Below are positions 2,311-17,878 of a DNA stretch of 17,878 nucleotides, one piece after another. The notes beneath the pieces were generated by a model. That model ran no database searches, had not been told where the DNA came from, and saw only the letters and a program-made list of their open reading frames with translations. Position 1 is the first letter of the stretch. Every line of letters begins with the position of its first letter. Position numbers and translations under genes: made by a program. The DNA comes from an uncultured Hungatella sp. Lineage in GTDB: Bacteria; Bacillota; Clostridia; Lachnospirales; Lachnospiraceae. The DNA is taken from NCBI GenBank assembly GCA_959018155.1, contig CAUEKH010000014.1, positions 1 to 17,878 of the forward strand, read 5' to 3'.

Positions 2311-3414
2311 ATGAGCAAAGTATCTGAAATGACAAGAGAATCCTGGATCATGAGCACTTTCCCGGAGTGGGGCACATGGCTGAACGAAGAAATTGAAAAT
2401 GAGGAGGTGAAGCCGGGAACAGTAGCGATGTGGTGGCTCGGATGTACAGGAATCTGGTTCAAGACGCCAGGCGGCTGCAATTTAACCATTGACTTATGGT
2501 GCGGCAACGGCAAGAGAACCCATGGAAACGGCAAGATGGCGGTCGGTCATCAGATGGCAAATATGTGCGGCGCCCGCAACATGCAGCCGAACTTAAGAGC
2601 AGTTCCATTTGTCATTGACCCATTTGCAATCAAGCAGGTGGATGCGGTTTTGGCAACTCATTACCACCAGGATCATATGAGCGCTGAGTATGCGGCTCAT
2701 GTTCTTCAGACCGGTATGACAACCGTGGATGAGAACGGAAAAGAGATTCCGGTACCATTTATCGGCCCGAAGAAATCTGTTGAGACCTGGATTAAGTGGG
2801 GCGTTCCGGAAGACCGCTGCATCACAGTAAGACCTGGCGACACAATCAAGATTAAAGACGTGGAGATTGTCGTACTCGATTCCTTCGACCGTACGTGTCT
2901 CGTGACGACTGATTCCACAGGCCCTGACAGAGAAGAACTGACAGGCGTATGCCCGACCGATATGGACGATAAGGCTGTCAACTATCTTGTAAAGACTCCG
3001 GGCGGGAACATTTACCACAGCGGTGATTCCCACTACTCCATCTACTATGCGAAACACGGGAAGGATCACGATATTGATGTTGCGTTCGGTTCCTACGGCG
3101 AGAACCCGGTCGGTATGGCCGACAAGATGACTTCCTGCGATATTCTCCGTATGGCAGAAGCTTTAAGATGTAAGGTAGTAGTTCCGATTCATTACGACGT
3201 ATGGACGAATTTCATGGCTGATGTCAATGAAATCAGAGTGCTTTACGATATGAAGAAAGATCGTCTCGACTATCAGTTCCACCCGTTCTTCTGGGAAGTA
3301 GGCGGCAAGTACGTATATCCGACTGACAAGGATAAGAGAGCATACCATCACCGCAGAGGATTTGAGGACTGTTTCGAGGCTCCGCAGAACATTCCGTTCC
3401 GGTCCTGTCTGTAA
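2311..3414 (+). CDS. ulaG: L-ascorbate-6-phosphate lactonase UlaG
   Basis: This 367-aa metallo-beta-lactamase-fold hydrolase is close to the usual UlaG length (about 355 aa). The metal site is visible as THYHQDH (H117, H119, D121, H122), then HSGDSHY (H236, D239) and a late histidine in PIHYD (H294). In the known pathway UlaG opens the lactone of L-ascorbate 6-phosphate, delivered by the PTS, to 3-keto-L-gulonate 6-phosphate in the cytoplasm. It is the first gene of the operon, with an AGGAGG site at about 2301-2306 in front of the ATG. The ulaC start follows 26 bp after its stop. Codon use here and in the next three genes is strongly biased, with many TTC, GGC and TTA codons, in keeping with high expression. 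UlaG-like proteins acting on other sugar lactones exist, so the exact substrate is inferred from the neighbours. Confidence 0.93.
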
Positions 3415-3440
3415 TCTGAATAAATTGGGGGAATAGGAAA

Positions 3441-3896
3441 ATGTTAAGAGATTTTGTAGAGCAGAAACACTATAAATTTGCCAAGGAGGCTCCCAACTGG
3501 GAGGAGGCAATCCGCATGAGTTGTGAATCCTTAGAAGCGGATGGTACGGTAGAGGCAAATTATAAAGAGGACATCATCGCGTGTGTCAAGAAGTACGGTC
3601 CCTATATCGTCATCATGCCGAATGTGGCGATGCCGCATTCCCAGGAGGGGGCAAAAGGGGTACATAAAACGACGATAGGATTTATGAAACTGGAGAAGCC
3701 GGTAAGCTTTGAACCGGGCAATCCCGATATGGATGCCAGACTTTTCTTTACACTGGCGTCCTGTAATTCCGACCAGCATCTTGAAAATATGACAAAGCTG
3801 TCGGAACTTTTGATGAATGAAGAGGTAGTGGGAGAACTGTTAAAGGCAGAGACGCCGGAAGACTTAATTAGGATTCAGGAGGCGTATCTCGACTAA
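3441..3896 (+). CDS. ulaC: PTS ascorbate-type EIIA component
   Basis: This 151-aa cytoplasmic phosphocarrier belongs to the mannitol/fructose/ascorbate type EIIA family (PTS_EIIA_2). The phosphorylated histidine is H66 in the signature NVAMPHSQEGAKGV, after the IVIMP strand. It accepts phosphate from HPr and passes it to the EIIB encoded at 5436. The length fits a free-standing EIIA domain without a fused regulator. It lies between ulaG and ulaA, and only 20 bp separate it from ulaA. The ribosome site is a GGGGGAATAGGAAA stretch before the ATG. Assignment to the ascorbate system rather than another sugar rests on the flanking UlaA and UlaG. Confidence 0.9.
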   Translation: MLRDFVEQKHYKFAKEAPNWEEAIRMSCESLEADGTVEANYKEDIIACVKKYGPYIVIMPNVAMPHSQEGAKGVHKTTIGFMKLEKPVSFEPGNPDMDARLFFTLASCNSDQHLENMTKLSELLMNEEVVGELLKAETPEDLIRIQEAYLD

Positions 3897-3916
3897 AAAC
3901 TTATGGGGGTAACTTT

Positions 3917-5398
3917 ATGGATTTTTTGATGAAAATATGGTCTTATTTTGCAGTCAATGTTTTACAGCAGCCGGCGTTTATGATTGGTCTTATCGTTATG
4001 CTCGGTTACATTCTCTTAAAGAAACCGTGGTATGACGTACTGGCAGGGGTTATCAAGGCAATTGTCGGTTACTTAATTCTTTCCGTTGGTTCCGGCGGAC
4101 TGGTCAGCAACTTCCGTCCGGTGCTGGTAGGTTTAAAAGATCGTTTCAATATGGACGCCATGGTTATTGACCCGTATTTCGGGCAGAACGCAGTAACCGC
4201 AGGCGTGGAAGAAGTATTCGGCAAGGCCTTCGGCGATGTTATGATTCTTCTTCTGATTGCATTTATTGTCAATATCTTACTGGTGCGTTTCCGTAAAGTC
4301 ACAAAGCTTCGCGCTTTATTTACAACGGGCCACGTACAGGTACAGCAGGCAGCTACCGCATACTGGTTAATCCTGTTTGCATGTCCGTTCTTAATCAACA
4401 ACAGTATCGGCCTTATCGTTGTTATGGCTCTGATCCTCGGCGCTTACTGGGCAGTTGGTTCCAACTTAACCATTAAACCGTGTCAGGATCTGACAGACGG
4501 CGCAGGCTTCTGTCTCGCTCATCAGCAGATGTTCGGTGTTGCCATCAACACCTGGATCGCTGAGAAGTTCTTCGGCAAGAAGAAAGACGGAAAAGACGTT
4601 AAGAAGATTGATGATATCGAATTACCGGGCTTTATGTCCATTTTCAATGAGAACATGGTATGTACATCCCTCCTGATGATTATTTTCTTCGGTGCAATTC
4701 TCTGTATCCTGGGACGTGATTATCTGGTAGAGCAGGGCTTCTTAAAAGAAGGCGCCAGCATGTTATTCTACGTAATCCAGACCTGTTTATATTTCGCAGT
4801 TTATCTGGCAATCTTACAGCTGGGCGTCAGAACGTTCGTAACAGAGCTGACCGCTTCCTTCCAGGGTATTGCTGACAAGTTACTTCCTGGTTCCTTACCA
4901 GGCGTTGACTGTGCAGTTGTATTCGGTTTCGGAGCAGCCAATGCGGTTCCGTTAGGCTTCTTAGCCGGTTTCGCAGGACAGATTTTAGCTATCATCGCAC
5001 TGATCGTATTAAAGAGCCCGGTTCTTGTTATCTGTGGATTCGTTCCTGTATTCTTCGATAACGCGACCATCGCTATTTTCGCCAATGAGAAGGGCGGTAT
5101 CAAGGCTGCTTTAATCCTTCCGTTTATCTCCGGTTTATGCCAGGTATTCGGTTCTGCCATCATCGCGGGCTGGGTCGGCATGGCAGCTTACGGCGGATAC
5201 TTGGGTATGTGGGACTGGGCCGTTATCTGGCCGGTTATGACAGCCGTTATGAAGTTCTTAAGCTACGCAGGTATCGCAGTCGTTGTTATTGCACTGCTTG
5301 CAATCCCGCAGATTCAGTATCGTCTGGATAAGAAGGGTTACTTCCTGATGGCTGAGGATTATGAGGCTTACAAAGAGTTAAAAGAAAAAGAAGCGTAA
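3917..5398 (+). CDS. ulaA: PTS ascorbate-type EIIC permease UlaA
   Basis: This 493-aa integral membrane protein has about 10-12 hydrophobic segments and matches UlaA over its length. Visible signatures include GYLILSVGSGGLVSNFRPV near residue 55, FTTGHVQVQQAA near residue 138, and PCQDLTDGAGFCLAHQQM near residue 190. UlaA transports the vitamin-C-type substrate across the cytoplasmic membrane while EIIB phosphorylates it. A polar insert near residues 220-235 (KKKDGKDVKKIDD) sits between membrane halves and should be cytoplasmic. The C-terminus is a short charged tail (KELKEKEA). The start has a GGGGGT site upstream, weaker than those of its neighbours, which may tune the permease level. The next gene, EIIB, follows after a 37-bp gap. 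Confidence 0.95.
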   Translation: MDFLMKIWSYFAVNVLQQPAFMIGLIVMLGYILLKKPWYDVLAGVIKAIVGYLILSVGSGGLVSNFRPVLVGLKDRFNMDAMVIDPYFGQNAVTAGVEEVFGKAFGDVMILLLIAFIVNILLVRFRKVTKLRALFTTGHVQVQQAATAYWLILFACPFLINNSIGLIVVMALILGAYWAVGSNLTIKPCQDLTDGAGFCLAHQQMFGVAINTWIAEKFFGKKKDGKDVKKIDDIELPGFMSIFNENMVCTSLLMIIFFGAILCILGRDYLVEQGFLKEGASMLFYVIQTCLYFAVYLAILQLGVRTFVTELTASFQGIADKLLPGSLPGVDCAVVFGFGAANAVPLGFLAGFAGQILAIIALIVLKSPVLVICGFVPVFFDNATIAIFANEKGGIKAALILPFISGLCQVFGSAIIAGWVGMAAYGGYLGMWDWAVIWPVMTAVMKFLSYAGIAVVVIALLAIPQIQYRLDKKGYFLMAEDYEAYKELKEKEA

Positions 5399-5435
5399 AC
5401 AGTCGTAATTATTAATAATATTGGAGGAAAAAACA

Positions 5436-5738
5436 ATGGCAAAGGAAAATATGAGCTTTCTGGTCTGCTGTGCCAATGGTGCAGGTTCCAGTCTGATGAT
5501 GAAAATGACACTGGAGAAGGTTTTAAAGAAGGTAGGCATCAAGCCAGGAAAAATCCATCACTGTGCACTCTCAGAAGGAAAGAGCGCGGCGCCTCAGTTT
5601 GATATCGTATTCTGCGCACAGAACTTTGTCTCCATGTTCAAGGATGCTGAGAAGAAAGGGACCAAGGTAATCGGTTTAAAGAATATCATGTCCGCTCAGG
5701 AAATTGAAGAGAAAATGAAAGAGAACGAGATAATCTGA
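5436..5738 (+). CDS. ulaB: PTS ascorbate-type EIIB component
   Basis: This 100-aa cytoplasmic EIIB protein of the lactose/ascorbate type has the phosphocysteine loop FLVCCANGAGSSLMMKM. C12 is the expected phosphorylated residue, by alignment with the CGNGQGSS loop of E. coli UlaB; C11 is an extra cysteine next to it. It takes phosphate from EIIA and hands it to the incoming substrate at UlaA. I chose the ATG at 5436 because a GGAGGA site lies 7 bp upstream; a TTG at 5421 in the same frame would include that ribosome site in the coding sequence. It completes the IIA-IIC-IIB set and is followed 28 bp later by the regulator gene. Confidence 0.92.
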   Translation: MAKENMSFLVCCANGAGSSLMMKMTLEKVLKKVGIKPGKIHHCALSEGKSAAPQFDIVFCAQNFVSMFKDAEKKGTKVIGLKNIMSAQEIEEKMKENEII

Positions 5739-5766
5739 CAGTTTACTTAGACTGGAGGGCAGCCTT

Positions 5767-6537
5767 ATGAAGAGAGAGAAAGCATGTGTCGACAGCCGCA
5801 GGGAAAAGGTCTTAAGCATGATACAGAGAGACCCGGAACTTCGGGTGAACCAGCTGGCTGAAATCCTGGAGGTGTCACTTGTGACCATCAGGAGAGACTT
5901 GCGTTTCCTGGAAGAAGAAGGGCTTTTGACACGTACTTACGGCGGGGCAATCCCGATAGAAGTGACGAAGGACGATATGGACGAGATCCGGCTGTATCGG
6001 ACCCTGATTGCAAAGTATGCTGCCCGATTTGTGTCTGACGGGGATACCCTGTTTATCAATACCAGCAGAAATGCCCTTTCGGTGCTTCAGTATATTGATA
6101 AAGATAATGTGACGGTGATCACGAACAACGGCAAGGCAATCCACAGTGAGCACGGGCGCGGTGTCAGCGTCGTGCTCACCGGCGGGGAGCTGCGCAATCC
6201 CAAGGACGCCATGGTAGGAGATTTCGCGGTCCGCAATCTCCAGACGGTCTTTGCGAAGAAGGCATTTGTCGGCTGTTCCGGTGTCTCTGCGGAGGCGGGG
6301 ATGACGACGGAACTGTTTTCCGAGGTCAGCATCAATGAGCTGATGATTGATCATACGACACAGGATGTTTACCTTTTGGCGGACCACACAAAGATTGGCA
6401 TGAACAGCAGTTTTACCAGCAGTCCAATCGAGAAAATCAAGTATCTGATCACAGACGGGGAAGCGCCGGAGGAGGCACTGGAGGAGATCCGCGCCCGGGG
6501 CGTGACGGTCTATCAGGTACACAAATCAGACTTTTAG
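5767..6537 (+). CDS. DeoR/GlpR-family transcriptional regulator, UlaR-like
   Basis: This 256-aa protein has an N-terminal DeoR winged helix-turn-helix (residues about 10-65) with the recognition helix VSLVTIRRDLRFLEEEGLL and the family wing TRTYGGA. The C-terminal sugar-phosphate sensor domain (about 75-235) shows DGDTLFINTS, VTVITNNGKAI and the conserved ADHTKIG loop. The usual GTT of the phosphate loop is replaced by SRN (residues 100-102), similar to the altered loop I recall in E. coli UlaR. Lying inside the operon, between the transport and catabolic genes, it probably represses the operon through the repeats at 2184-2290 and is released by a pathway phosphate ester. Both points are inferred from context. 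A GGAGG site precedes the ATG. Confidence 0.9.
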   Translation: MKREKACVDSRREKVLSMIQRDPELRVNQLAEILEVSLVTIRRDLRFLEEEGLLTRTYGGAIPIEVTKDDMDEIRLYRTLIAKYAARFVSDGDTLFINTSRNALSVLQYIDKDNVTVITNNGKAIHSEHGRGVSVVLTGGELRNPKDAMVGDFAVRNLQTVFAKKAFVGCSGVSAEAGMTTELFSEVSINELMIDHTTQDVYLLADHTKIGMNSSFTSSPIEKIKYLITDGEAPEEALEEIRARGVTVYQVHKSDF

Positions 6538-6543
6538 CAGAAT

Positions 6544-6569
6544 GTGGGGAAGGGTTCATACTTCCCCAC
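6544..6569 (+). other. Intergenic hairpin between regulator and ulaE
   Basis: A perfect 9-bp stem GTGGGGAAG/CTTCCCCAC (6544-6552 with 6561-6569) has an 8-nt loop GGTTCATA. It lies 6 bp after the regulator stop and ends about 13 bp before the ulaE ribosome site. Only a short TTTT follows after 7 bases, so full termination is unlikely. It may be an RNA processing or stabilising stem, or a weak attenuator separating PTS/regulator expression from the catabolic genes. Confidence 0.6.
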
Positions 6570-6595
6570 GACTGCGGTTTTGGAGGAAATGACAG

Positions 6596-7441
6596 ATGGA
6601 TAGAGCATATACCCTGGGGTTATACGAGAAGGCCATGCCCTCTGATTTAAGCTGGAAGGAGAAGCTGGAAGCCGCAAAGGCGGCCGGTTTTGACTTTGTG
6701 GAAATCAGCATTGATGAGACGGATGCAAAGCTTGGCAGACTCGATATGACGAGAGAAGAGCGTTTGGAACTGGTCCGCCTTATGAGTGAGACGGGAGTTC
6801 CCATCCGGACCATGTGCTTGAGCGGCCACCGGAAATATCCCCTTGGAAGCCATGACAAAGCGGTCAGGGACAGAGGCATGGAGATTATGGAAAAGGCCAT
6901 TCGCTTAGCCGATGATCTGGGAATCCGGATTATCCAGCTGGCCGGATACGATGTCTACTACGAGGAATCCGACGATGAGACGAAACGGCTTTTTGGCGAG
7001 AATTTAAAGAAAGCTGTGGAGATGGCGGCAAGAGCCGGTGTCGTGATGGGATTCGAGACGATGGAGACGGAATTCATGAATACGGTGGAGAAGTCCGTGA
7101 AGTACGTGGATTTGATTTCTTCCATGTATTTAAATGTCTATCCCGATATCGGCAATATTACCAACGCCGCTAAGACGTACGGCACGGATGTGCTGGACGA
7201 CTTAAGGAAGGGAAAAGGTCATCTCGTAGCCATGCACTTGAAGGAGACGGTTCCGGGCGTGTTCCGCGAGGTGCCGTTTGGAACTGGCCACGTTGATTTT
7301 AAGGGAGCCATCAAGACGGCCTGGGAGCTGGGAATCCGCAAGTTTGTGACGGAATTCTGGTATACGGGGAATCCGGAGTGGCGTAAGGATCTCGATTTCG
7401 CCCATTCGATGATGGCGGGAATTCTGGATTCACAGGAATAG
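6596..7441 (+). CDS. ulaE: L-ribulose-5-phosphate 3-epimerase UlaE
   Basis: This 281-aa TIM-barrel sugar-phosphate epimerase of the AP-endonuclease 2/xylose isomerase-like fold has the usual UlaE length. The expected metal tetrad is visible: E154 (GFETMETEF), D184 (VYPDIGNI), H214 (AMHLKET) and E253 (TEFWYTG). It interconverts L-xylulose 5-phosphate and L-ribulose 5-phosphate in the cytoplasm. The N-terminus (LGLYEKAMPSDLSW) is typical of UlaE/SgbU. The ATG at 6596 follows a GGAGGA site at correct spacing; the nearby ATG at 6589 is out of frame. It belongs to the ula operon downstream of the regulator and is followed after 16 bp by the 349-aa unknown gene. The E. coli partner gene ulaD, normally just upstream, is absent. 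Confidence 0.93.
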   Translation: MDRAYTLGLYEKAMPSDLSWKEKLEAAKAAGFDFVEISIDETDAKLGRLDMTREERLELVRLMSETGVPIRTMCLSGHRKYPLGSHDKAVRDRGMEIMEKAIRLADDLGIRIIQLAGYDVYYEESDDETKRLFGENLKKAVEMAARAGVVMGFETMETEFMNTVEKSVKYVDLISSMYLNVYPDIGNITNAAKTYGTDVLDDLRKGKGHLVAMHLKETVPGVFREVPFGTGHVDFKGAIKTAWELGIRKFVTEFWYTGNPEWRKDLDFAHSMMAGILDSQE

Positions 7442-7457
7442 AGGAGAGGATAGTAAG

Positions 7458-8507
7458 ATGAAGGTTGAGAAGAAAGTAATAGAGAATCTGACAAAATGTT
7501 ATTCTATCGCACCGCTTCACTACAATGGCGGCGACCATTTCCTTGTGGCAGCGGAAAAAGTGGACCGCTGCCTTCTGTTTGACTTGGATGGCAATGTGGA
7601 GGACACAGTCTGGAGCGAACCGGGCGGAGTTATGACCATGGTTCAGGTTCCGGGTACCAACGGCCAGTTTCTGGCAACTCATAAGTTCTACTCCCCCAAC
7701 GATTCCAAGGAAGCGAAGATCGTGATTGTGACTCCGGTGGAGAAGGGAAACTGGGAGGTGAGGACACTCGTTGATCTGCCTCACGTGCACCGGTTCGACA
7801 TCGTGGAGAGAAATGGCGTCCGCTACCTGATTGCCTGTGCCTTAAAATCAGGCCATGAGTTCAAGGACGACTGGTCCATGCCGGGGAAGGTCTACGCGGC
7901 CGAACTTCCGGAGGATTTAAGCGGATTTGACGAGGAACATCAGCTGGAACTTCAGGTGATCAAAGATAATATGTTAAAGAACCACGGTTACTACCGGGTG
8001 GAAGACGGAGGCGTCACCACCAGTGTCATTTCCGCGGACTGCGGCGTCTTCCAGTTTATTCCTCCGGCCGAGAGGGGCGGAGAATGGGAGATCCGCGAAC
8101 TTCTGTCCACACCGGCCAGCGACGCGGTTTTAGTCGATATGGATGAGGACGGAGAGATGGAACTGGCAGTTTTAGCCCCGTTCCATGGCGAGAGCATCAG
8201 CTTCTATAAGAAGAAAGACGGCGTTTTCGAGAAGGTCTATGATTACGGCCAGCCGGCGGAATTTACCCATGCGATCTTCGGCGGTATGCTCTGTGGAAAA
8301 CCTGCTGTCGTGATCGGACACAGGAAGGGCCCGAGAAATTTACTGGCATTTACTTATAATCAGGCGGCGAAGGTCTATGAGTTCCAGGTTCTCGATACGG
8401 ACTGTGGGCCGGCCAATGTCTATAAGTATTCCCACAACGGGAAGGACGTCATCATTTCCACAAACAGGGAGATTGATGAAGTGGCAATGTATTTACTGGA
8501 AGCGTAA
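7458..8507 (+). CDS. Unassigned cytoplasmic propeller-like (FG-GAP/VCBS-type) protein in ula operon
   Basis: I do not recognise a characterised family for this 349-aa protein. It has no signal peptide or membrane segment. It is rich in short alternating beta-strand blocks of 40-50 residues (for example [53 protein letters not shown]), as in a beta-propeller. One FG-GAP-like acidic loop, [10 protein letters not shown] at residues 227-236, could bind calcium. Several histidines lie in otherwise well-formed turns (LPHVHRFD near 108-114, H133, H176, H271, H288) and could form a metal or substrate site. It sits between ulaE and ulaF with 16- and 14-bp gaps and a good GGAGAGGA ribosome site, so it is surely co-expressed with the pathway. 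An enzyme or sensor for a pathway sugar is plausible but unproven. Confidence 0.75.
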
Positions 8508-8521
8508 GGAGGAAAATCAGA

Positions 8522-9211
8522 ATGCTGGAAGAACTGAAAAAGGTAGTCTATGAGGCAAATATGGATCTGCCCAGATACGGGCTGGTTACATTTACCTGGG
8601 GAAATGTGAGCGCTATTGACCGGGAGAGCGGCTTATTCGTGATCAAGCCCAGCGGCGTCGATTACGATAAGCTGTCTCCGGAGGATATGGTGGTGATGGA
8701 TTTGGAAGGCAACCGGGTGGAAGGAAGATACAATCCGTCTTCTGATACGGCGACCCATCTGGAGATGTACAAGGCATTCCCGGAAATCGGGGGAATTGTG
8801 CACACCCATTCTTCCTGGGCGACAAGCTGGGCTCAGGCCGGAAGAGGAATCCCGTGCTACGGGACGACCCACGCCGATTATATGTACGGGGAAATCCCGT
8901 GCCTGCGCTGCCTGACGAAGGAAGAGATTGACGGCGCTTACGAGAAGAATACAGGGCTTCTGATTGTCGATTACTTTAAGGATAAGGAATATATGGCGGT
9001 TCCGGCCTGCCTCTGCAAGAACCACGGTCCGTTTGCCTGGGGCAAGGACGCGAAGGAAGCGGTTCACAATGCCGTTGTCTTAGAGGAAGTGGCGAAAATG
9101 GCTGCCAGGACGGAACTTATCAATCCGGAAGTGAAGCCGGCGCCGCAGGAGCTGCAGGATAAGCATTATCTGAGAAAACACGGAGCGAACGCTTACTACG
9201 GACAGAAATAG
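8522..9211 (+). CDS. ulaF: L-ribulose-5-phosphate 4-epimerase (UlaF/AraD family)
   Basis: This 229-aa class II aldolase/adducin-fold enzyme matches the AraD/UlaF length (about 228-231 aa). The zinc site is visible as D75 (NPSSDTATH), H94 and H96 (IVHTHSSWA), and H168 (CKNHGPF). The catalytic aspartate D119 (THADY) and the C-terminal tyrosines (Y225/Y226 in NAYYGQK) are also present. It converts L-ribulose 5-phosphate to D-xylulose 5-phosphate by retro-aldol chemistry, feeding the pentose phosphate pathway. AraD and UlaF cannot be told apart by sequence alone; the ula neighbours favour UlaF. An AGGAGG site lies in front of the ATG. The HAD gene follows 38 bp later. Confidence 0.93.
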
Positions 9212-9249: not shown

Positions 9250-9963
9250 GTGATAAAGACGGTAATCTTTGATATCGACGATACCATGTACGACTATACA
9301 CGCGGTAACCGCCTGGCTTTGGAGGCGCTTAAGGACTACTGTGTCCTGCATCTGGAGATCACGGGGACCACGTTCCACCGGACGCTTAAGGAAGCCAATG
9401 AGCGGATGGTTGCGAAGCTGGGGAGCAACAATGCTGCCATCCATAACCGGCTTCTCCGGTATCAGACCATGCTGGAAATCCTCGATAAGCCGCTTTTCCC
9501 TCATGCTGTGAGGATGGCGGAGTTATACTGGAAGACGATGATCGACTGCATGGAACCGGAGCCCGGGCTGGCGGATTTCATCCGTTCACTGAAGGAAAAT
9601 GGGGTCAGAGTGGGAGTAGGGACGAATATGACGGCATACGTCCAGTATAAAAAGCTGGAACGGCTTGGCATTACGCCCATGATTGATTTTCTGGTGACGA
9701 GTGAAGAGGCGGGTGTGGAGAAGCCGGATGCGGTATTTTATCAGCACTGTCTTTTAAAAGCAGGCTGTAAGCCGGAGGAATGCTTATTTATCGGAGACGG
9801 ATTAAAGGGCGATGTGCTGGCGCCGCAGCAGGCGGGGATGCACAGTCTCTGGTATCAGCCTTCCGGAAGGCCGGATGGAGAAAAAGAGTATGTACCGGGA
9901 ATACAGAAAATCACATCATTTTCTGAGTGCCTGGAAGAGGGATTTTTGGGGAGCTTTTCATAA
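9250..9963 (+). CDS. HAD-superfamily hydrolase (phosphatase-like), GTG start
   Basis: This 237-aa cytoplasmic HAD protein has all four motifs: DIDDT (D8, D10) at the nucleophile loop, T125 in VGTNMT, K158 in GVEKPD, and the acidic pair in FIGDGLKGD (D183, D188). An alpha-helical cap (residues about 15-95) is inserted after motif I, so it is a subfamily I, YjjG/phosphoglycolate-phosphatase-like enzyme. The start is GTG at 9250 with a GGGAGAG site about 9 bp upstream. It is the last gene of the ula operon, before a strong terminator. Its position suggests that it dephosphorylates a toxic or side-product sugar phosphate of the pathway; the substrate cannot be read from the sequence. Confidence 0.88.
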   Translation: MIKTVIFDIDDTMYDYTRGNRLALEALKDYCVLHLEITGTTFHRTLKEANERMVAKLGSNNAAIHNRLLRYQTMLEILDKPLFPHAVRMAELYWKTMIDCMEPEPGLADFIRSLKENGVRVGVGTNMTAYVQYKKLERLGITPMIDFLVTSEEAGVEKPDAVFYQHCLLKAGCKPEECLFIGDGLKGDVLAPQQAGMHSLWYQPSGRPDGEKEYVPGIQKITSFSECLEEGFLGSFS

Positions 9964-12238: not shown

Positions 12239-12267
12239 TAGACATGCAGTTTCCTATCTTGTATAAT
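12239..12267 (+). promoter_or_regulatory. Consensus-like promoter of the degV operon
   Basis: TAGACA (12239-12244) is followed after exactly 17 bp by TATAAT (12262-12267). This is an 11 of 12 match to the sigma-A consensus. The expected start is near 12274, which leaves a leader of about 35 nt before the degV ATG. Confidence 0.8.
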
Positions 12268-12308
12268 AGAGGGATAGCATCTTGTATACGAAAGAGAGGA
12301 GTACGGAC

Positions 12309-13220
12309 ATGGGTTGTGGCAGATTTGCGATAATTAGCGACAGTTCCTGTGATTTACCGAAAGAAGTAACGGATAAGAATGAGATAACAGTCGTTCCGTT
12401 TTACGTGTCTTTTGATGGGAATAAGTATGAAAAAGAGGGCGTAGAGATTGGAGTGCGCGATTTTTATAAGAAGATGGTGGACCATCCGGATGTGTATCCG
12501 ATGTCTTCCATGCCTTCGATTCAGGATTACACGGATGTATTCCTTCCGTTTGCCAGACAGCAGATTCCGGTATTGTGTATCTGTATTACTACGAAGTTCA
12601 GCGGATCCATGCAGTCGGCTCTCAATGCGAAGGCGCTGGTGCAGGAGCAGTTTGAGGATGCGGAGATTGAAGTGGTTGACGCAACGGTGAATACGGTGCT
12701 TCAGGGGCTTCTCGTCTTAGAGGCGGCGGCTCTGCGGGATGAAGGGCTGACGCTTTCGGAGGCGGTCCAAGCGATTGACGCCATAAAAGGGACGGGACGC
12801 ATTTTCTTTACCGTGGGCAGTATGGATTATTTACAGCATGGCGGGCGGATCGGCAAGGTGGCGGGAGCGGCGGCTTCCGTGCTGGGAATCAGGCCGATCA
12901 TCACATTGAAGGAGGGGGAGATTTTCCCCAGCGGGATTTCCAGGAGCAGGAGGAAATCCATAGATAAAGTAGTTGCGCTTCTGATTGAATATTTGAAGGA
13001 GAATGGCCGGCCTTTTCAGGATTACCGGTTTACCATAGGATTCGGCTATGACTATGAGGAAGCGGATAAGTTCCGGGAACAGCTGATGGAGATTCTCCGG
13101 CGGGAAGGATTTGGGACGGATAAAATCCTGATCAATCAGATCGGGGCCACGATTGGGGTACATACGGGGCCGCATCCGATTGGGGTGGGAATTATCAGAC
13201 GTTACAGCAGCGTAAAGTAG
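12309..13220 (+). CDS. DegV family fatty-acid-binding protein
   Basis: This 303-aa protein has the DegV fold from end to end. Motifs are IISDSSCDLP (residues 8-17), SSMPS (66-70), TTKFSGS (94-100), HGGRIG (177-182) and IRPII (194-198). Known DegV/FakB proteins hold a fatty acid in a buried pocket and present it, for example to the FakA kinase, for phosphorylation. No FakA is in the window, so the partner may be elsewhere, or the protein may supply an acyl group to the downstream GH3 protein; the latter is inference. The ATG at 12309 has a GAGGAG site 7 bp upstream; the upstream TTG at 12282 in frame would add nine residues unlike the family. It is the first gene of an operon, with the next start 9 bp after its stop. 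Confidence 0.93.
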   Translation: MGCGRFAIISDSSCDLPKEVTDKNEITVVPFYVSFDGNKYEKEGVEIGVRDFYKKMVDHPDVYPMSSMPSIQDYTDVFLPFARQQIPVLCICITTKFSGSMQSALNAKALVQEQFEDAEIEVVDATVNTVLQGLLVLEAAALRDEGLTLSEAVQAIDAIKGTGRIFFTVGSMDYLQHGGRIGKVAGAAASVLGIRPIITLKEGEIFPSGISRSRRKSIDKVVALLIEYLKENGRPFQDYRFTIGFGYDYEEADKFREQLMEILRREGFGTDKILINQIGATIGVHTGPHPIGVGIIRRYSSVK

Positions 13221-13229
13221 GGGGATTAT

Positions 13230-13814
13230 ATGGGATACCTTGTGGCCGGTCTGATTGCCTTTGGAATGTATCTGATCTATGATATTAACAGTTTTACCTG
13301 GAAAAACCGATTTTTGCACAGCTTTTTTATGGCGGGCAGTATTTTGCTTGCTGCGGCAACAGCCGGATGTGTTGTCACATCTTTGAGGGAGCAGACGCTT
13401 CCTCTCTGGTGGAGGGTGGTGTGCGGACTTCTGGCAGTTTCCCAGGTGGGGCTTCTTGTATACACACTGTTCTTTGCACTGCCGTTTGGGGAAACGTATG
13501 TGCGGGCAGATGGGAAAATTCCTGTATACAAAGAAGGTGTTTACGCTCTTTGCAGACATCCGGGGGTTTTATGGTTTATTCTTCTGTATACGTTTCTGGC
13601 GCTGATGACGGGGACAGCGCTGATGGCGGCGGCAGGGGTGGAGTACAGTGTACTGAATGTACTGTATATATGGTTTCAGGACAGGGTTACATTTAAACAG
13701 ACTCTTTACGGGTATGAGAATTATCAGAAGGAGACGCCATTTCTGATACCTGACAGAAAGAGTATCTTAACATGCATCCGATATTTACGGACGACGGAGG
13801 ACAAACGCGGATGA
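13230..13814 (+). CDS. ICMT/PEMT-like membrane methyltransferase family protein
   Basis: This 194-aa protein has four to five membrane helices (about 1-18, 32-50, 62-84, 113-135 and 136-150). After the third helix comes the family signature VYALCRHPGVLWF, with the RHP triad at residues 109-111. Near the C-terminus is the matching FKQTLYGYENYQKETPFLIP block. This two-part signature is shared by isoprenylcysteine carboxyl methyltransferases, phospholipid N-methyltransferases and NnrU-like proteins, which bind S-adenosylmethionine at the cytoplasmic face of the membrane. The substrate is unknown; a lipid or a lipid-linked acid is the family expectation. A GGGGG site precedes the ATG. Its TGA stop overlaps the next ATG (ATGA, 13811-13814), so it is translationally coupled to the GH3 gene. 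Confidence 0.8.
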   Translation: MGYLVAGLIAFGMYLIYDINSFTWKNRFLHSFFMAGSILLAAATAGCVVTSLREQTLPLWWRVVCGLLAVSQVGLLVYTLFFALPFGETYVRADGKIPVYKEGVYALCRHPGVLWFILLYTFLALMTGTALMAAAGVEYSVLNVLYIWFQDRVTFKQTLYGYENYQKETPFLIPDRKSILTCIRYLRTTEDKRG

Positions 13815-15460
13815 AGTTCGAGGAGAAGCTGAAAGAATATAAAGACTGGGATTTGTGGAAAGAATACTGTGGATTTCTGGAATTGACAACAGAAGAATTT
13901 ATGGCAATCCAGAACCGGCTGATGCTGGAACAGCTGAGAATCTGGGAAAAGAGCGGGATCGGAAAACGTCTTCTGAAAGGAAAGCAGCCGAAGACGATAG
14001 AAGAGTTCAGAAAGGTGATGCCTTTGACCTCCTATGAGGATTATGCCGATGTCCTTTCTCTCAAGGATAAGACCATGCTGCCCGATGACCCGGTCATCTG
14101 GATTCAGACTACGTGGGAGGGCGGACGCCATACGATCAAGCTGGCGCCGTATACCAGAGGTATGCTGGAGACGTATCAGAATAATATGCTGGGGTGTCTC
14201 ATGCTGTCCACCAGCGACGGGCGGGGAAATTTTGACGTGAGCCCCAAAGATACGATTCTGTATGCGCTGGCGCCGCTTCCATACGCCACAGGAATTTTTC
14301 CGATGCTTCTCAACGATGCTATCAGCATCGAGTTCCTTCCGCCGGTGAAGGAGGCGCAGAAGCTTTCTTTCAGCGAGCGGAATAAAAAAGGATTTAAGAT
14401 GGGGCTTAAGAAGGGGATTGATTTCTTCTTCGGTGTGGGGAGTGTCACGTATTACGTCAGTTTAAGCATCGCTTCCCTCGGTTCCGGCCATAAGGGCGGG
14501 AAAAAGAGCGGTGACGAGAAGGGGACGGGCATGTCTGTCAGCCCGTTTATGCTGGCGCGTTTTCTGAGGGCAAAGAAGCGGTGTCAGAAGGAAGGCAGGG
14601 AACTGCTTCCGAAAGATATTTTCCGGTTGAAGGGGTTCATGTGCGCGGGGACGGATAACCGCCTCTACCGGGATGATTTGGAAAAAATGTGGGGAATCCG
14701 CCCCATGGAAATCTTTGCGGGGACGGAACCGACGTGTATCGGTACGGAGATCTGGAGCCGGGACGGGATGTATTTCTTCCCGGACGCCTGCTTTTATGAA
14801 TTTATACCGGAAAAAGAGATGGAGCGGAGCTTGTCGGACCCGTCTTATCAGCCGAGAACGTGCCTGATGAATGAGGTGGAGGAAGGCGAGAAGTATGAGC
14901 TTGTGATCTCCGTGTTCAAGGGCGGTGTGTTTATGCGCTACCGCGTGGGCGATGTGTACCGCTGTCTGGCTCTGGAAAGCGATCGGGACAACGTCCGTTT
15001 TCCGCGTTTTGAGTACATAGACAGAATTCCCACGGTCATTGATATTGCAGGCTTTACGCGGATTACGGAGAACTCGGTGGAACGGGTTATCACCCTCTCC
15101 GGCCTTGCGGTGGAGGACTGGGTGGCGGCCAAGGAAGTGACGGAGAATAAGCGGCCATTTCTTCACATGTATGTGGAAATGAAGCCGGAGTGCCTGTTCT
15201 CCTCCGCTGTGACCGTTTCTATTCTGAAGGAACACATGGGCGTCTATTTTAAATACGTGGATGAGGATTACAAGGATTTAAAGAAGATTCTCGGAATTGA
15301 TCCGCTGGAAATCACCATACTCCGGTGCGGGACATTTCAGACGTATTACGAGACGGGGCGGGAGAAGATGCGGCGGATTAATCCGACCCAGTATGAGCTT
15401 GGCGAACTGTTAAAAAGCCAGGAGCGCGTTTCCGATAAGGGAAGGAGGTATAAAGTATAA
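13811..15460 (+). CDS. GH3-family acyl-adenylating (acid-amido synthetase-like) protein
   Basis: This 549-aa protein resembles GH3 auxin-responsive proteins. In plants these activate a carboxylic acid with ATP and join it to an amino acid. Visible motifs are IFAGTEPTCIG (301-311, the ATP motif near the adenine), FMRYRVGDVYRC (375-386) and the following FPRFEYIDRIPTVIDIAGFTRITEN segment. The first ATP loop, usually SSGTTxGxxK, is diverged here to QTTWEGGRHTIK (99-110). A GK-rich insert (GSGHKGGKKSGDEKGTG, 224-240) interrupts the middle. The ATG at 13811 has GGAGG 10 bp upstream and the ATGA overlap with the methyltransferase; the in-frame ATG at 13772 would lie deep inside that gene. It is probably cytoplasmic, and the substrate is unknown. 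Its stop overlaps the next ATG by one base. Confidence 0.87.
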   Translation: MKFEEKLKEYKDWDLWKEYCGFLELTTEEFMAIQNRLMLEQLRIWEKSGIGKRLLKGKQPKTIEEFRKVMPLTSYEDYADVLSLKDKTMLPDDPVIWIQTTWEGGRHTIKLAPYTRGMLETYQNNMLGCLMLSTSDGRGNFDVSPKDTILYALAPLPYATGIFPMLLNDAISIEFLPPVKEAQKLSFSERNKKGFKMGLKKGIDFFFGVGSVTYYVSLSIASLGSGHKGGKKSGDEKGTGMSVSPFMLARFLRAKKRCQKEGRELLPKDIFRLKGFMCAGTDNRLYRDDLEKMWGIRPMEIFAGTEPTCIGTEIWSRDGMYFFPDACFYEFIPEKEMERSLSDPSYQPRTCLMNEVEEGEKYELVISVFKGGVFMRYRVGDVYRCLALESDRDNVRFPRFEYIDRIPTVIDIAGFTRITENSVERVITLSGLAVEDWVAAKEVTENKRPFLHMYVEMKPECLFSSAVTVSILKEHMGVYFKYVDEDYKDLKKILGIDPLEITILRCGTFQTYYETGREKMRRINPTQYELGELLKSQERVSDKGRRYKV

Positions 15461-17878
15461 TGTATAATTATTCTTTTATCTCTATCATAGCCCTGTTCTG
15501 TTATATGCTTCTGTTTGTCGCGTTTATGGCGGCTCACAAGAATAAGATTATTAACTCGTTTCTCATGGTGCTGGCCGGCTTTGTGCTCTGGACGGGCGGC
15601 TCTCTTGCCATGAGAATGGAACTGTGGCCGGGGGTCGCGTTCTGGTTCCATTTGTCGATAGTGGGACTCAGCTTCCTGCCGTTTACATTTTTTAATTTTA
15701 TCCACTCCATGGCAGATTCTGACGATTATACGCTGTGGTGGGTCTGGTTAATTATGGCGGCCGTCAACAATATCCTGAATATCAGGTTTGGACTCTATAT
15801 TCCGTGCCCGGAGGTGATACGGCTTTCCAGCGGCGCGGCGGGGTTCGTCTACCATATTGGCTGGCCGGTTATTATCCTGTTTATAGCGAATTCCTGTCCT
15901 GTCGTCCACATGATTTATCTGGTGAAGAAGACGTACCGGAAGAATACGCTGGAGCGCAATCAGCTGAAGCCGATTTTTATCGGAATCATCATTCTGTTTA
16001 TCGGCCATGCGGGGACGTTAGTGCCTGCTTTTAAGGGATTTCCGACGGACGTGCTCTCGGGAGTCATCAACGCCGGATTTATGTTTTACGCACTGTACAA
16101 GAAGCATCTATTCCGATTGACGCTTCTGGTGTCGAGAGGGGTGGTTTATGGCGCCAGCACTCTGCTGGTTGCGCTTCTCTTTGCCAACTGTATTAACCCG
16201 CTGGAAGAATTTATCCAGCTGAAAATGCCGGCCTTCACCGAGAACAGTCTTCTGATTGTGGCAGTCTGTTTTACGCTGGTAACATTTTTCGTTTCGTCTG
16301 TGGTGAAGACGTTCATCGACATTTTATTTGCCAAGGGGGAAATGATTCAGACGGAGAATTTAAAGAAGTTCAGCACGGCGGTATCCAAGAGCCTGAATGT
16401 GGAGAATATTGTGGAGGAAATCTCCGCGGTGATCCAGGAGACGCTGGACGTGGGCGCCATTTACGTCTGTCTTGCGGACCAGTCGGGAGAAAGCTACGAG
16501 ACGGTCCATCAGACCAGCCCGGTCAGCGGGATCCGGTTCTCAATCCGCTGGGATAATCCGGCGGCGGAGTGGATGCGTCAGAACAGAAAATGTATGCTGG
16601 TGAGTGAGTTTAAGCGGACGGTGCTTTTCAAATCCATGTGGGAGGAGGAGAAGCGGCTGATACGCGATCTGGGGGTTCAGTGCCTGCTTCCGTTGCTGGA
16701 TGATGAGGGGCTTGCGGGGATTGTCCTTTTGACCCAGCGGAAAAGAGGGAAAGCCTACGGATACGACGATTTGAGTTTCCTGGAATCCGTCAGTTCGGTG
16801 GCGTCCATAGCGGTCCGCAATTCACGGCTGTATGAGAAGGCGTGCACGGAGGCGAGGGCGGATGAACTGACCGGACTTTTGAACCGGAGGTATTTCTCGG
16901 AAGTGCTGAATCAGATTTTCGAGAAGAATCCGGACAGGGAGCTGGCTCTGATTATCATTAACATGGATGATTTTAAGCTGTATAATCAGCTTTACGGCCT
17001 GAAGGAAGGCGATATGGCCCTGTTTCATGTGGCAAAGATTATCAGTGCCACAATCGGCGAACTGGGGTACGTCTGCCGGTACAGCGGAAAGGAATTTGCG
17101 GTCGCCCTTCCGGGAGTCGATGTGCTTGCGGCCAAAAATATCGCGGAGTCCATCCGGCTGCAGATTCTCAACATGAACAAGAGAGCCACGGACTATGCGC
17201 TGAAGGTGCTGACAGTCAGCTGTGGAATCTGTGCCATTCCATACGCGGCCAGCAATATTAAGCAGCTTGTGGAGAATGCCGATATGGCGGTCTATTCGGT
17301 GAAGCGAAAAGGGAAAAACGGTGTCATGGTTTACGATATCGGTTCTCATATTGAGGAGAAGAGCCAGGGCAGCAAGCCGATCGCCAGTGAGGAAATCTAT
17401 TCTTCCTACAGTTCTACCATCTATGCGCTGACTGCGGCCATAGACGCGAAAGACCACTATACCTTCAGCCACTCCCGCAATGTAGCGGATTACGCGGGCC
17501 TCCTGGCGCAGGAGTACGGGATGAGTGAGGATTTCGTGGAACTGGTGAAAGAGGCGGGACTTCTCCACGATATCGGTAAGATTGGGATTCCGGAACATAT
17601 TCTGAATAAGCCAGGAAAGCTGGAGCCGGAGGAATATGAGATTATGAAGGGGCATGTGGAGGCGTCGATCGGAATTATCAGAAATCTGCCGTCTCTGGAT
17701 TACGTAATCCCTGCGGTGATCGGCCATCATGAGCGGTATGACGGAAGAGGCTATCCGAGAGGGATTGAGGGGGAGGACATTCCGCTTTCTGCCAGGATCC
17801 TGTGCATTGCGGATTCTTTTGACGCGATGATTTCGAAACGATCCTATAAGGAGGCGTGCCCGCTGGATTTTGCATTAA
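15460..17878 (+). CDS. 7TM-GAF-GGDEF-HD-GYP signalling protein (3' end beyond window)
   Basis: This frame is open from the ATG at 15460 to the window end, at least 806 residues. Residues about 4-285 hold eight or nine membrane helices, as in 7TM-type sensor domains. Residues about 311-460 resemble a GAF domain. From about 465 comes a GGDEF domain (ADELTGLLNRRYF), whose active-site loop is SGKEF (542-546) instead of GG(D/E)EF, so diguanylate cyclase activity is doubtful. From about 640 comes an HD-GYP domain with intact HDIGKIGIP (H703, D704), HHERYDGRGYP (756-766) and the start of the next helix. HD-GYP domains hydrolyse c-di-GMP. The start codon overlaps the GH3 stop (TAATG), and AGGAGG lies 11 bp upstream, so it is coupled to the GH3 gene. 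A minus-strand frame at 16822-17730 is its shadow. Confidence 0.92.
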   Translation, partial: MYNYSFISIIALFCYMLLFVAFMAAHKNKIINSFLMVLAGFVLWTGGSLAMRMELWPGVAFWFHLSIVGLSFLPFTFFNFIHSMADSDDYTLWWVWLIMAAVNNILNIRFGLYIPCPEVIRLSSGAAGFVYHIGWPVIILFIANSCPVVHMIYLVKKTYRKNTLERNQLKPIFIGIIILFIGHAGTLVPAFKGFPTDVLSGVINAGFMFYALYKKHLFRLTLLVSRGVVYGASTLLVALLFANCINPLEEFIQLKMPAFTENSLLIVAVCFTLVTFFVSSVVKTFIDILFAKGEMIQTENLKKFSTAVSKSLNVENIVEEISAVIQETLDVGAIYVCLADQSGESYETVHQTSPVSGIRFSIRWDNPAAEWMRQNRKCMLVSEFKRTVLFKSMWEEEKRLIRDLGVQCLLPLLDDEGLAGIVLLTQRKRGKAYGYDDLSFLESVSSVASIAVRNSRLYEKACTEARADELTGLLNRRYFSEVLNQIFEKNPDRELALIIINMDDFKLYNQLYGLKEGDMALFHVAKIISATIGELGYVCRYSGKEFAVALPGVDVLAAKNIAESIRLQILNMNKRATDYALKVLTVSCGICAIPYAASNIKQLVENADMAVYSVKRKGKNGVMVYDIGSHIEEKSQGSKPIASEEIYSSYSSTIYALTAAIDAKDHYTFSHSRNVADYAGLLAQEYGMSEDFVELVKEAGLLHDIGKIGIPEHILNKPGKLEPEEYEIMKGHVEASIGIIRNLPSLDYVIPAVIGHHERYDGRGYPRGIEGEDIPLSARILCIADSFDAMISKRSYKEACPLDFAL

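Follow-up and report, generated by a model that had tools for sequence, protein, structure and literature searches.

Do the four genes that close an 17,878-nucleotide stretch of an uncultured Hungatella sp. (contig CAUEKH010000014.1, assembly GCA_959018155.1; the whole stretch is called the window below) serve one task, and which task could that be? Positions 12309-17878 are filled by four co-directional open reading frames (ORFs), in the order DegV, a putative membrane methyltransferase (MT), a GH3-like protein, and a seven-transmembrane (7TM)-GAF-GGDEF-HD-GYP protein. An earlier note, made from the sequence of the window, had described four head-to-tail genes behind one promoter that share a task linked to cyclic di-GMP (c-di-GMP); the arrangement was confirmed, with a 9-base gap between DegV and MT, an ATGA overlap between MT and GH3, and a TAATG overlap between GH3 and HD-GYP. 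The conserved unit consists of three genes, MT, GH3 and HD-GYP, and not of four, and their linkage suggests an undescribed lipid-derived signaling system.

12239..12267, + strand: promoter-like site TAGACA-17-TATAAT, 11/12 (consensus match only)
12309..13220, + strand: DegV family (fatty-acid-binding type) protein, accessory operon member (PF02645, 6.4e-63)
13230..13814, + strand: MT, integral membrane protein of ICMT/PEMT/SRD5A fold, putative methyltransferase, core gene 1
13811..15460, + strand: GH3-like protein, putative acyl-adenylating enzyme of the TTWEGG subfamily, core gene 2
15460..17878, + strand: 7TM-GAF-degenerate GGDEF-HD-GYP protein, core gene 3, predicted c-di-GMP phosphodiesterase (Pfam HisKA_7TM, GAF, GGDEF, HD_5); 3' end cut off by the end of the window

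The DegV, GH3 and signaling domains of the window proteins are recognized by Pfam.

Conservation of the MT-GH3-HD-GYP unit

A genome collection with one genome per species (84,980 species) was searched with the GH3 sequence; it yielded 115 relatives, the best 80 of which were kept, and the closest named relatives belong to Hungatella (86%). MT lies directly upstream of GH3 in 79 of these 80 loci, and HD-GYP directly downstream in 79, the single miss in either case being a contig end beside GH3. The gene order of the earlier note is therefore not confined to one genome, and it stands for MT, GH3 and HD-GYP in the 80 loci and in a sister clade, but not for DegV, which was found upstream of MT in only 10 of the 80 loci and in the window. 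Gaps were counted for 79 loci and the window, with gene starts picked by script: the MT-GH3 spacing is -4 in 27 of 80 cases, at most 33 bases in 79, and 252 bases in locus L041; for GH3-HD-GYP, 15 of 80 cases have a spacing of -4 and 9 a spacing of -1, and two seeming gaps of more than 1 kb are HD-GYP genes split into two ORFs, with the first half in place. Gene clustering of the 80 loci found no further gene fixed at any position around the module, and 56 of the 80 units have no same-strand ORF of at least 60 amino acids whose end falls in the 150 bases before the unit (a count that includes contig ends).

The same association was seen in genomes sampled by taxonomy. The Hungatella family was represented by 150 genomes. 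Six of them carry the GH3 subfamily (>850 bits), and the MT subfamily (>230 bits) is present in those same 6, adjacent to it; the sensor N-terminus is found in these 6 and in one more, whose contig stops exactly at that gene. Weaker GH3 matches (<51 bits) in 9 further genomes and MT-like proteins (<39 bits) in 19 further genomes of the 150 are taken as other superfamily members. Among 243 genomes of the class, GH3 (>600 bits) and MT (>140 bits) occur, adjacent, in an identical set of 6; three of these, together with a fourth found later, constitute the sister clade, which keeps the module order in 4/4 cases (in its first three members, GH3 is 44-46% and HD-GYP 31-33% identical to the best queries). 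The control set consisted of 19 distant clostridial GH3 loci with their flanks, two of them from genomes that also carry the module; MT stands beside the distant GH3 in none of the 19, and a GGDEF/HD-type match was found in one, approximately 5 kb away.

Since MT, GH3 and HD-GYP are conserved, co-directional and often overlapping across many Clostridia, from the gut as well as from the environment, and in the sister clade, a common task is very likely for these three; to this extent the earlier proposal is supported, and it is corrected for DegV, an accessory gene. The view that the genes are chance neighbors, or the outcome of ordinary operon drift, draws on DegV and the flanking genes, which are variable in most loci, but the core trio stays together in clades whose GH3s share approximately 45% identity, and no sampled genome has the GH3 subfamily apart from the MT subfamily, or the reverse, at the bit thresholds applied; this view has next to no probability, being refuted for the three core genes and possible for DegV alone.

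A candidate acyl signaling module

Two enzyme-like proteins fixed beside one sensor phosphodiesterase have the layout of a synthase and its receptor; for this reason the preferred reading is one in which the HD-GYP protein senses an acyl-derived product or is tied to it. By analogy to known systems, MT, GH3 and HD-GYP would act as a single module linking a small acyl-derived molecule to c-di-GMP, a reading put forward tentatively, as a good possibility rather than a probability. GH3 would activate a carboxylic acid (a fatty acid being the likeliest) and would probably conjugate it with an amine or amino acid; this product would be modified at the membrane, probably by methylation, by the ICMT/PEMT-fold protein; and the 7TM sensor of the operon would respond to the product or to its synthase, thereby altering c-di-GMP hydrolysis by the HD-GYP domain. 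Acyl activation, methylation and phosphodiesterase activity are predicted here from fold and family; what the product is, and whether it acts as ligand or is exported, is a guess.

In the RpfF-RpfR system of Burkholderia and Cronobacter, a DSF synthase and its receptor, the receptor is reported to bind the fatty-acid signal and also the synthase (PMC6361424), and the pair is reported to be conserved in Cronobacter (PMC4698668). The module would work like RpfF, the signal synthase, and RpfR, the receptor and phosphodiesterase, but with unrelated parts; the likeness, an acyl-signal synthase with a partner receptor acting on c-di-GMP, is for the module one of linkage and domain logic. RpfF is a crotonase-type enzyme and RpfR a FI-PAS-GGDEF-EAL protein, and the system belongs to Proteobacteria, whereas the module combines GH3, an ICMT-fold protein and a 7TM HD-GYP protein in Clostridia. 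The Phc system of Ralstonia offers another likeness, as its methyl 3-hydroxyester is a lipid methyl ester signal served by a methyltransferase and a dedicated sensor; in contrast to the module, PhcB does not have the ICMT fold, and the sensor is a histidine kinase.

Several observations weigh against this reading. The RHPxY ... EE signature, which we take to be the ICMT/PEMT consensus and which served as the basis for scoring the MT motifs, has its tyrosine in only 1 of 80 MTs, and QD stands in place of EE in 67 of 80 (simple pattern); the predicted model of MT (pLDDT, the predicted local distance difference test score, 94) lands equally on ICMT and on steroid reductases, which are tied. No solved relative of the sensor 7TM N-terminus was found by sequence, and hence none that would suggest a ligand. 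Neither an exporter nor any other biosynthetic gene is conserved next to the module in the 80 loci, and a riboswitch precedes the operon in only one of them. In Fusibacter, a second copy (L104:4751-9790, - strand) keeps a diverged GH3 and HD-GYP without MT, whose place is taken by a 309-amino-acid protein that by eye resembles a degenerate regulator. Finally, the planctomycete GH3-like enzyme OlsH is reported to require the serine of motif I (PMC12493201), whereas the module GH3 carries TTWEGG at this position, so that GH3 adenylation may be lost or changed.

Judged from their sequences, every part of the module belongs to a known superfamily, with MT and GH3 in subfamilies with rewritten motifs; since these are the signature motifs themselves (the P-loop in GH3, RHPxY and EE in ICMT), the chemistry of GH3 and MT, both taken as active in the earlier note, is not readable from family names. 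The earlier note knew of no described system with this gene set, and no published description of it appeared among the matches listed, which cover open-licence papers; among the 120 protein matches listed, those with a name are "GH3 auxin-responsive promoter family protein," "GH3 family domain-containing protein" and "hypothetical protein." The small-molecule inputs of c-di-GMP enzymes are mostly unknown, and where two synthesis-type proteins are fixed next to a single c-di-GMP phosphodiesterase, a ligand can be tested for directly. The carriers of the module include the cultured gut species Hungatella hathewayi, [Clostridium] clostridioforme, [Clostridium] citroniae, Coprococcus comes and Eubacterium ramulus; the human gut may thus harbor a bacterial lipid signal that has yet to be recognized.

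The 7TM-GAF-GGDEF-HD-GYP protein

With the canonical GGDEF and HD-GYP residues assumed as the standard, the HD and HHExxDGxGYP catalytic residues expected of a phosphodiesterase are conserved in at least 97% of 77 alignment rows, and of the 80 translated stretches, among them several truncated ones, 76 contain the HHExxDGxGYP pattern. The GGDEF motif has lost the residues expected of a cyclase: it reads mostly SGKEF, with K for D/E in at least 97% of the 77 rows, and at the position of the first metal-binding Asp, 66 of the 80 sequences have N, 8 have S and one has D, the remaining 5 not being read. The window protein has RYSGKEF at the GGDEF position and a canonical HHExxDGxGYP; sister locus L101 carries GGEEF. 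Since GGDEF is degenerate in this clade, the likely output is breakdown and not synthesis of c-di-GMP, and the window protein is predicted to hydrolyze c-di-GMP and not to make it; the domain reading of the earlier note is corrected on this point. At the N-terminus, HisKA_7TM was matched in 23 of 28 members at an expectation value (E) of 1e-3, and all 17 N-terminal domains compared, that of sister locus L101 among them, have R52 and D197. The HD-GYP gene is present as two ORFs in L017, L029 and L047 (frameshifts, stops or sequence errors).

The GH3-like protein

The predicted model of GH3 (pLDDT 85) lands on plant GH3 enzymes, which conjugate hormones, and on PaaK-type ligases, in keeping with a GH3 fold. 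Motif I, [ST]SG[TS], is replaced by TTWEGG in 80 of 81 sequences and by TTWECG in one; three sister-clade sequences have TTWKGG, and the Fusibacter paralogue has TTRDGA (TTRDGARG). Motif II, FxGTEP, is present in 78 of 81 sequences, and its Glu is kept; motif III is an exact RYRVGD in 62 of 81, with R376, Y377, R378, G380 and D381 each conserved in at least 97%. Invariant residues are concentrated in motifs I-III (34/63, vs. 121/486 elsewhere; Fisher p 4e-6), and for this reason the site is probably in use, while its chemistry may differ; a GH3 subfamily with a rewritten P-loop is a question for enzymologists.

The rewritten motifs also lend themselves to another explanation, in which GH3 and MT are modified, non-catalytic partners, and GH3 binds a nucleotide or acyl ligand as a co-receptor of HD-GYP. 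The near-invariant TTWEGG, set against SG[TS] or TG[TS] in each of the 18 distant clostridial GH3s whose sequence spans this segment, would fit such a role, as would the altered MT signature, the degenerate GGDEF, and the Fusibacter paralogue, in which GH3 and HD-GYP stay paired despite a further altered motif I and the loss of MT. However, GH3 is the most conserved of the three core proteins (median identity to the window 59%, vs. 49% for HD-GYP and 39% for MT), its invariant residues crowd motifs I-III, and the Glu of motif II and the Arg, Gly and Asp of motif III are retained; a purely binding role is thus considered unlikely, and the coupling of an acyl-derived molecule to c-di-GMP is preferred.

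The membrane protein MT

The MT of the window alone has no significant family match. Its relatives match Pfam PEMT and ICMT, in 17 of 33 cases each and more frequently than families of the SRD5A/DUF1295 kind, and PEMT is the best match of the MT members. Among solved structures, Ma-ICMT is the closest in sequence, with a weak E of 0.056. The fold (tied with steroid reductases) and the RHP motif, kept in 79 of 80 MTs, resemble the membrane methyltransferases ICMT/Ste14 and PEMT; unlike ICMT/Ste14, MT has mostly RHPG[V/I] for RHPxY and mostly QD for EE, and we know of no prenylated-protein substrate in these bacteria. The structural tie leaves room for a reductase of the SRD5A/DUF1295 kind, with a product that would be a reduced, not a methylated, lipid, but the more frequent PEMT and ICMT matches and Ma-ICMT as nearest solved relative argue against it and make it improbable; methylation of the GH3 product is the step favored here.

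DegV and a possible lipid pathway

DegV is an accessory and not a core component, and a four-gene module with DegV as a core part was rejected, given its presence in only 10 of the 80 loci and the window. This count is based on similarity to the window DegV (E 1e-6), which a more diverged DegV could escape; 11 of the 80 loci lack MT or have at most 1.3 kb upstream of MT, two DegV-bearing loci among them, and short-upstream loci were counted as DegV-less. The upstream DegVs fall into three types that are mutually 20-28% alike, each restricted to its own part of the GH3 tree, on which the presence of DegV requires five changes. Three distinct types upstream in three separate clades keep DegV a useful clue: its repeated recruitment hints at fatty acids as substrate. 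The window DegV reaches 113.9 bits against the FakB1 model NF038249, under the cut-off of 350, and passes the general DegV model. The open frame of this gene reaches back to a TTG at 12282; on visual inspection, the ribosome-binding context favors the ATG at 12309.

Fatty-acid supply by DegV is also compatible with a membrane-lipid pathway under c-di-GMP control, in which GH3 would make an N-acyl amino acid lipid like OlsH, MT would methylate the headgroup in the manner of a PEMT, and HD-GYP would do no more than tune the pathway to the state of the membrane. The OlsH report (PMC12493201) describes a GH3-like N-acyl ornithine synthase, like the module GH3 a bacterial member of this family, that acts by acyl activation; the product lipid in that organism is methylated, and deletion of OlsH abolishes trimethyl ornithine lipid. 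PEMT as the best match of the MT members points in the same direction. Yet motif I of OlsH, TSGTTQGATK, is unlike the TTWEGG of the module, and OlsH works with the acyltransferase OlsI. The 80 loci show neither a second acyltransferase nor another lipid gene conserved near the module; in its available part the report mentions no ICMT-fold or c-di-GMP partner (PMC12493201), and we judge it unusual for a lipid pathway that every copy seen has its own 7TM phosphodiesterase. A lipid pathway is therefore a serious but doubtful alternative to an acyl product sensed by the HD-GYP protein.

Regulation

The consensus-like promoter of the earlier note is borne out as a consensus match, and an equal match occurs elsewhere in the region. 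Rfam found no known RNA element above threshold in the window, riboswitches included. In Parasporobacterium paucivorans, a c-di-GMP-I riboswitch (60.6 bits, L020:9265-9349) lies directly before MT, which starts at 9419; as a single case it is suggestive of feedback on the operon. The 80 loci were surveyed with a home-made model, R1, built on four training sequences that include the L020 element; the Rfam models proper covered 54 of these loci as well as the window and L101, and this is also the coverage for c-di-GMP-II. General control of the module by c-di-GMP riboswitches was rejected, as R1 finds only L020 directly before the module in the 80 loci; in L038 a riboswitch lies approximately 2 kb upstream of the module, before another gene.

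In its most extended form, the signaling reading would give Clostridia a self-contained system, in which acyl signals of a new class are produced by GH3 together with the ICMT-fold enzyme, the partner 7TM-HD-GYP receptor translates them directly into c-di-GMP breakdown, and a riboswitch provides feedback in at least one species; this full version is regarded as rather unlikely. In Sinanaerobacter (L004), c-di-GMP-I riboswitches are present at 677-770, 3324-3413 and 3558-3651, two of them close together, approximately 6-9 kb upstream of the module.

Other features of the window

As read from its ORFs, the region 2311-9211 of the window resembles a sugar-acid (ascorbate-type) phosphotransferase system operon with a DeoR-type regulator at 5767; within this putative operon, positions 7458-8507 encode an unexplained protein of 349 amino acids.
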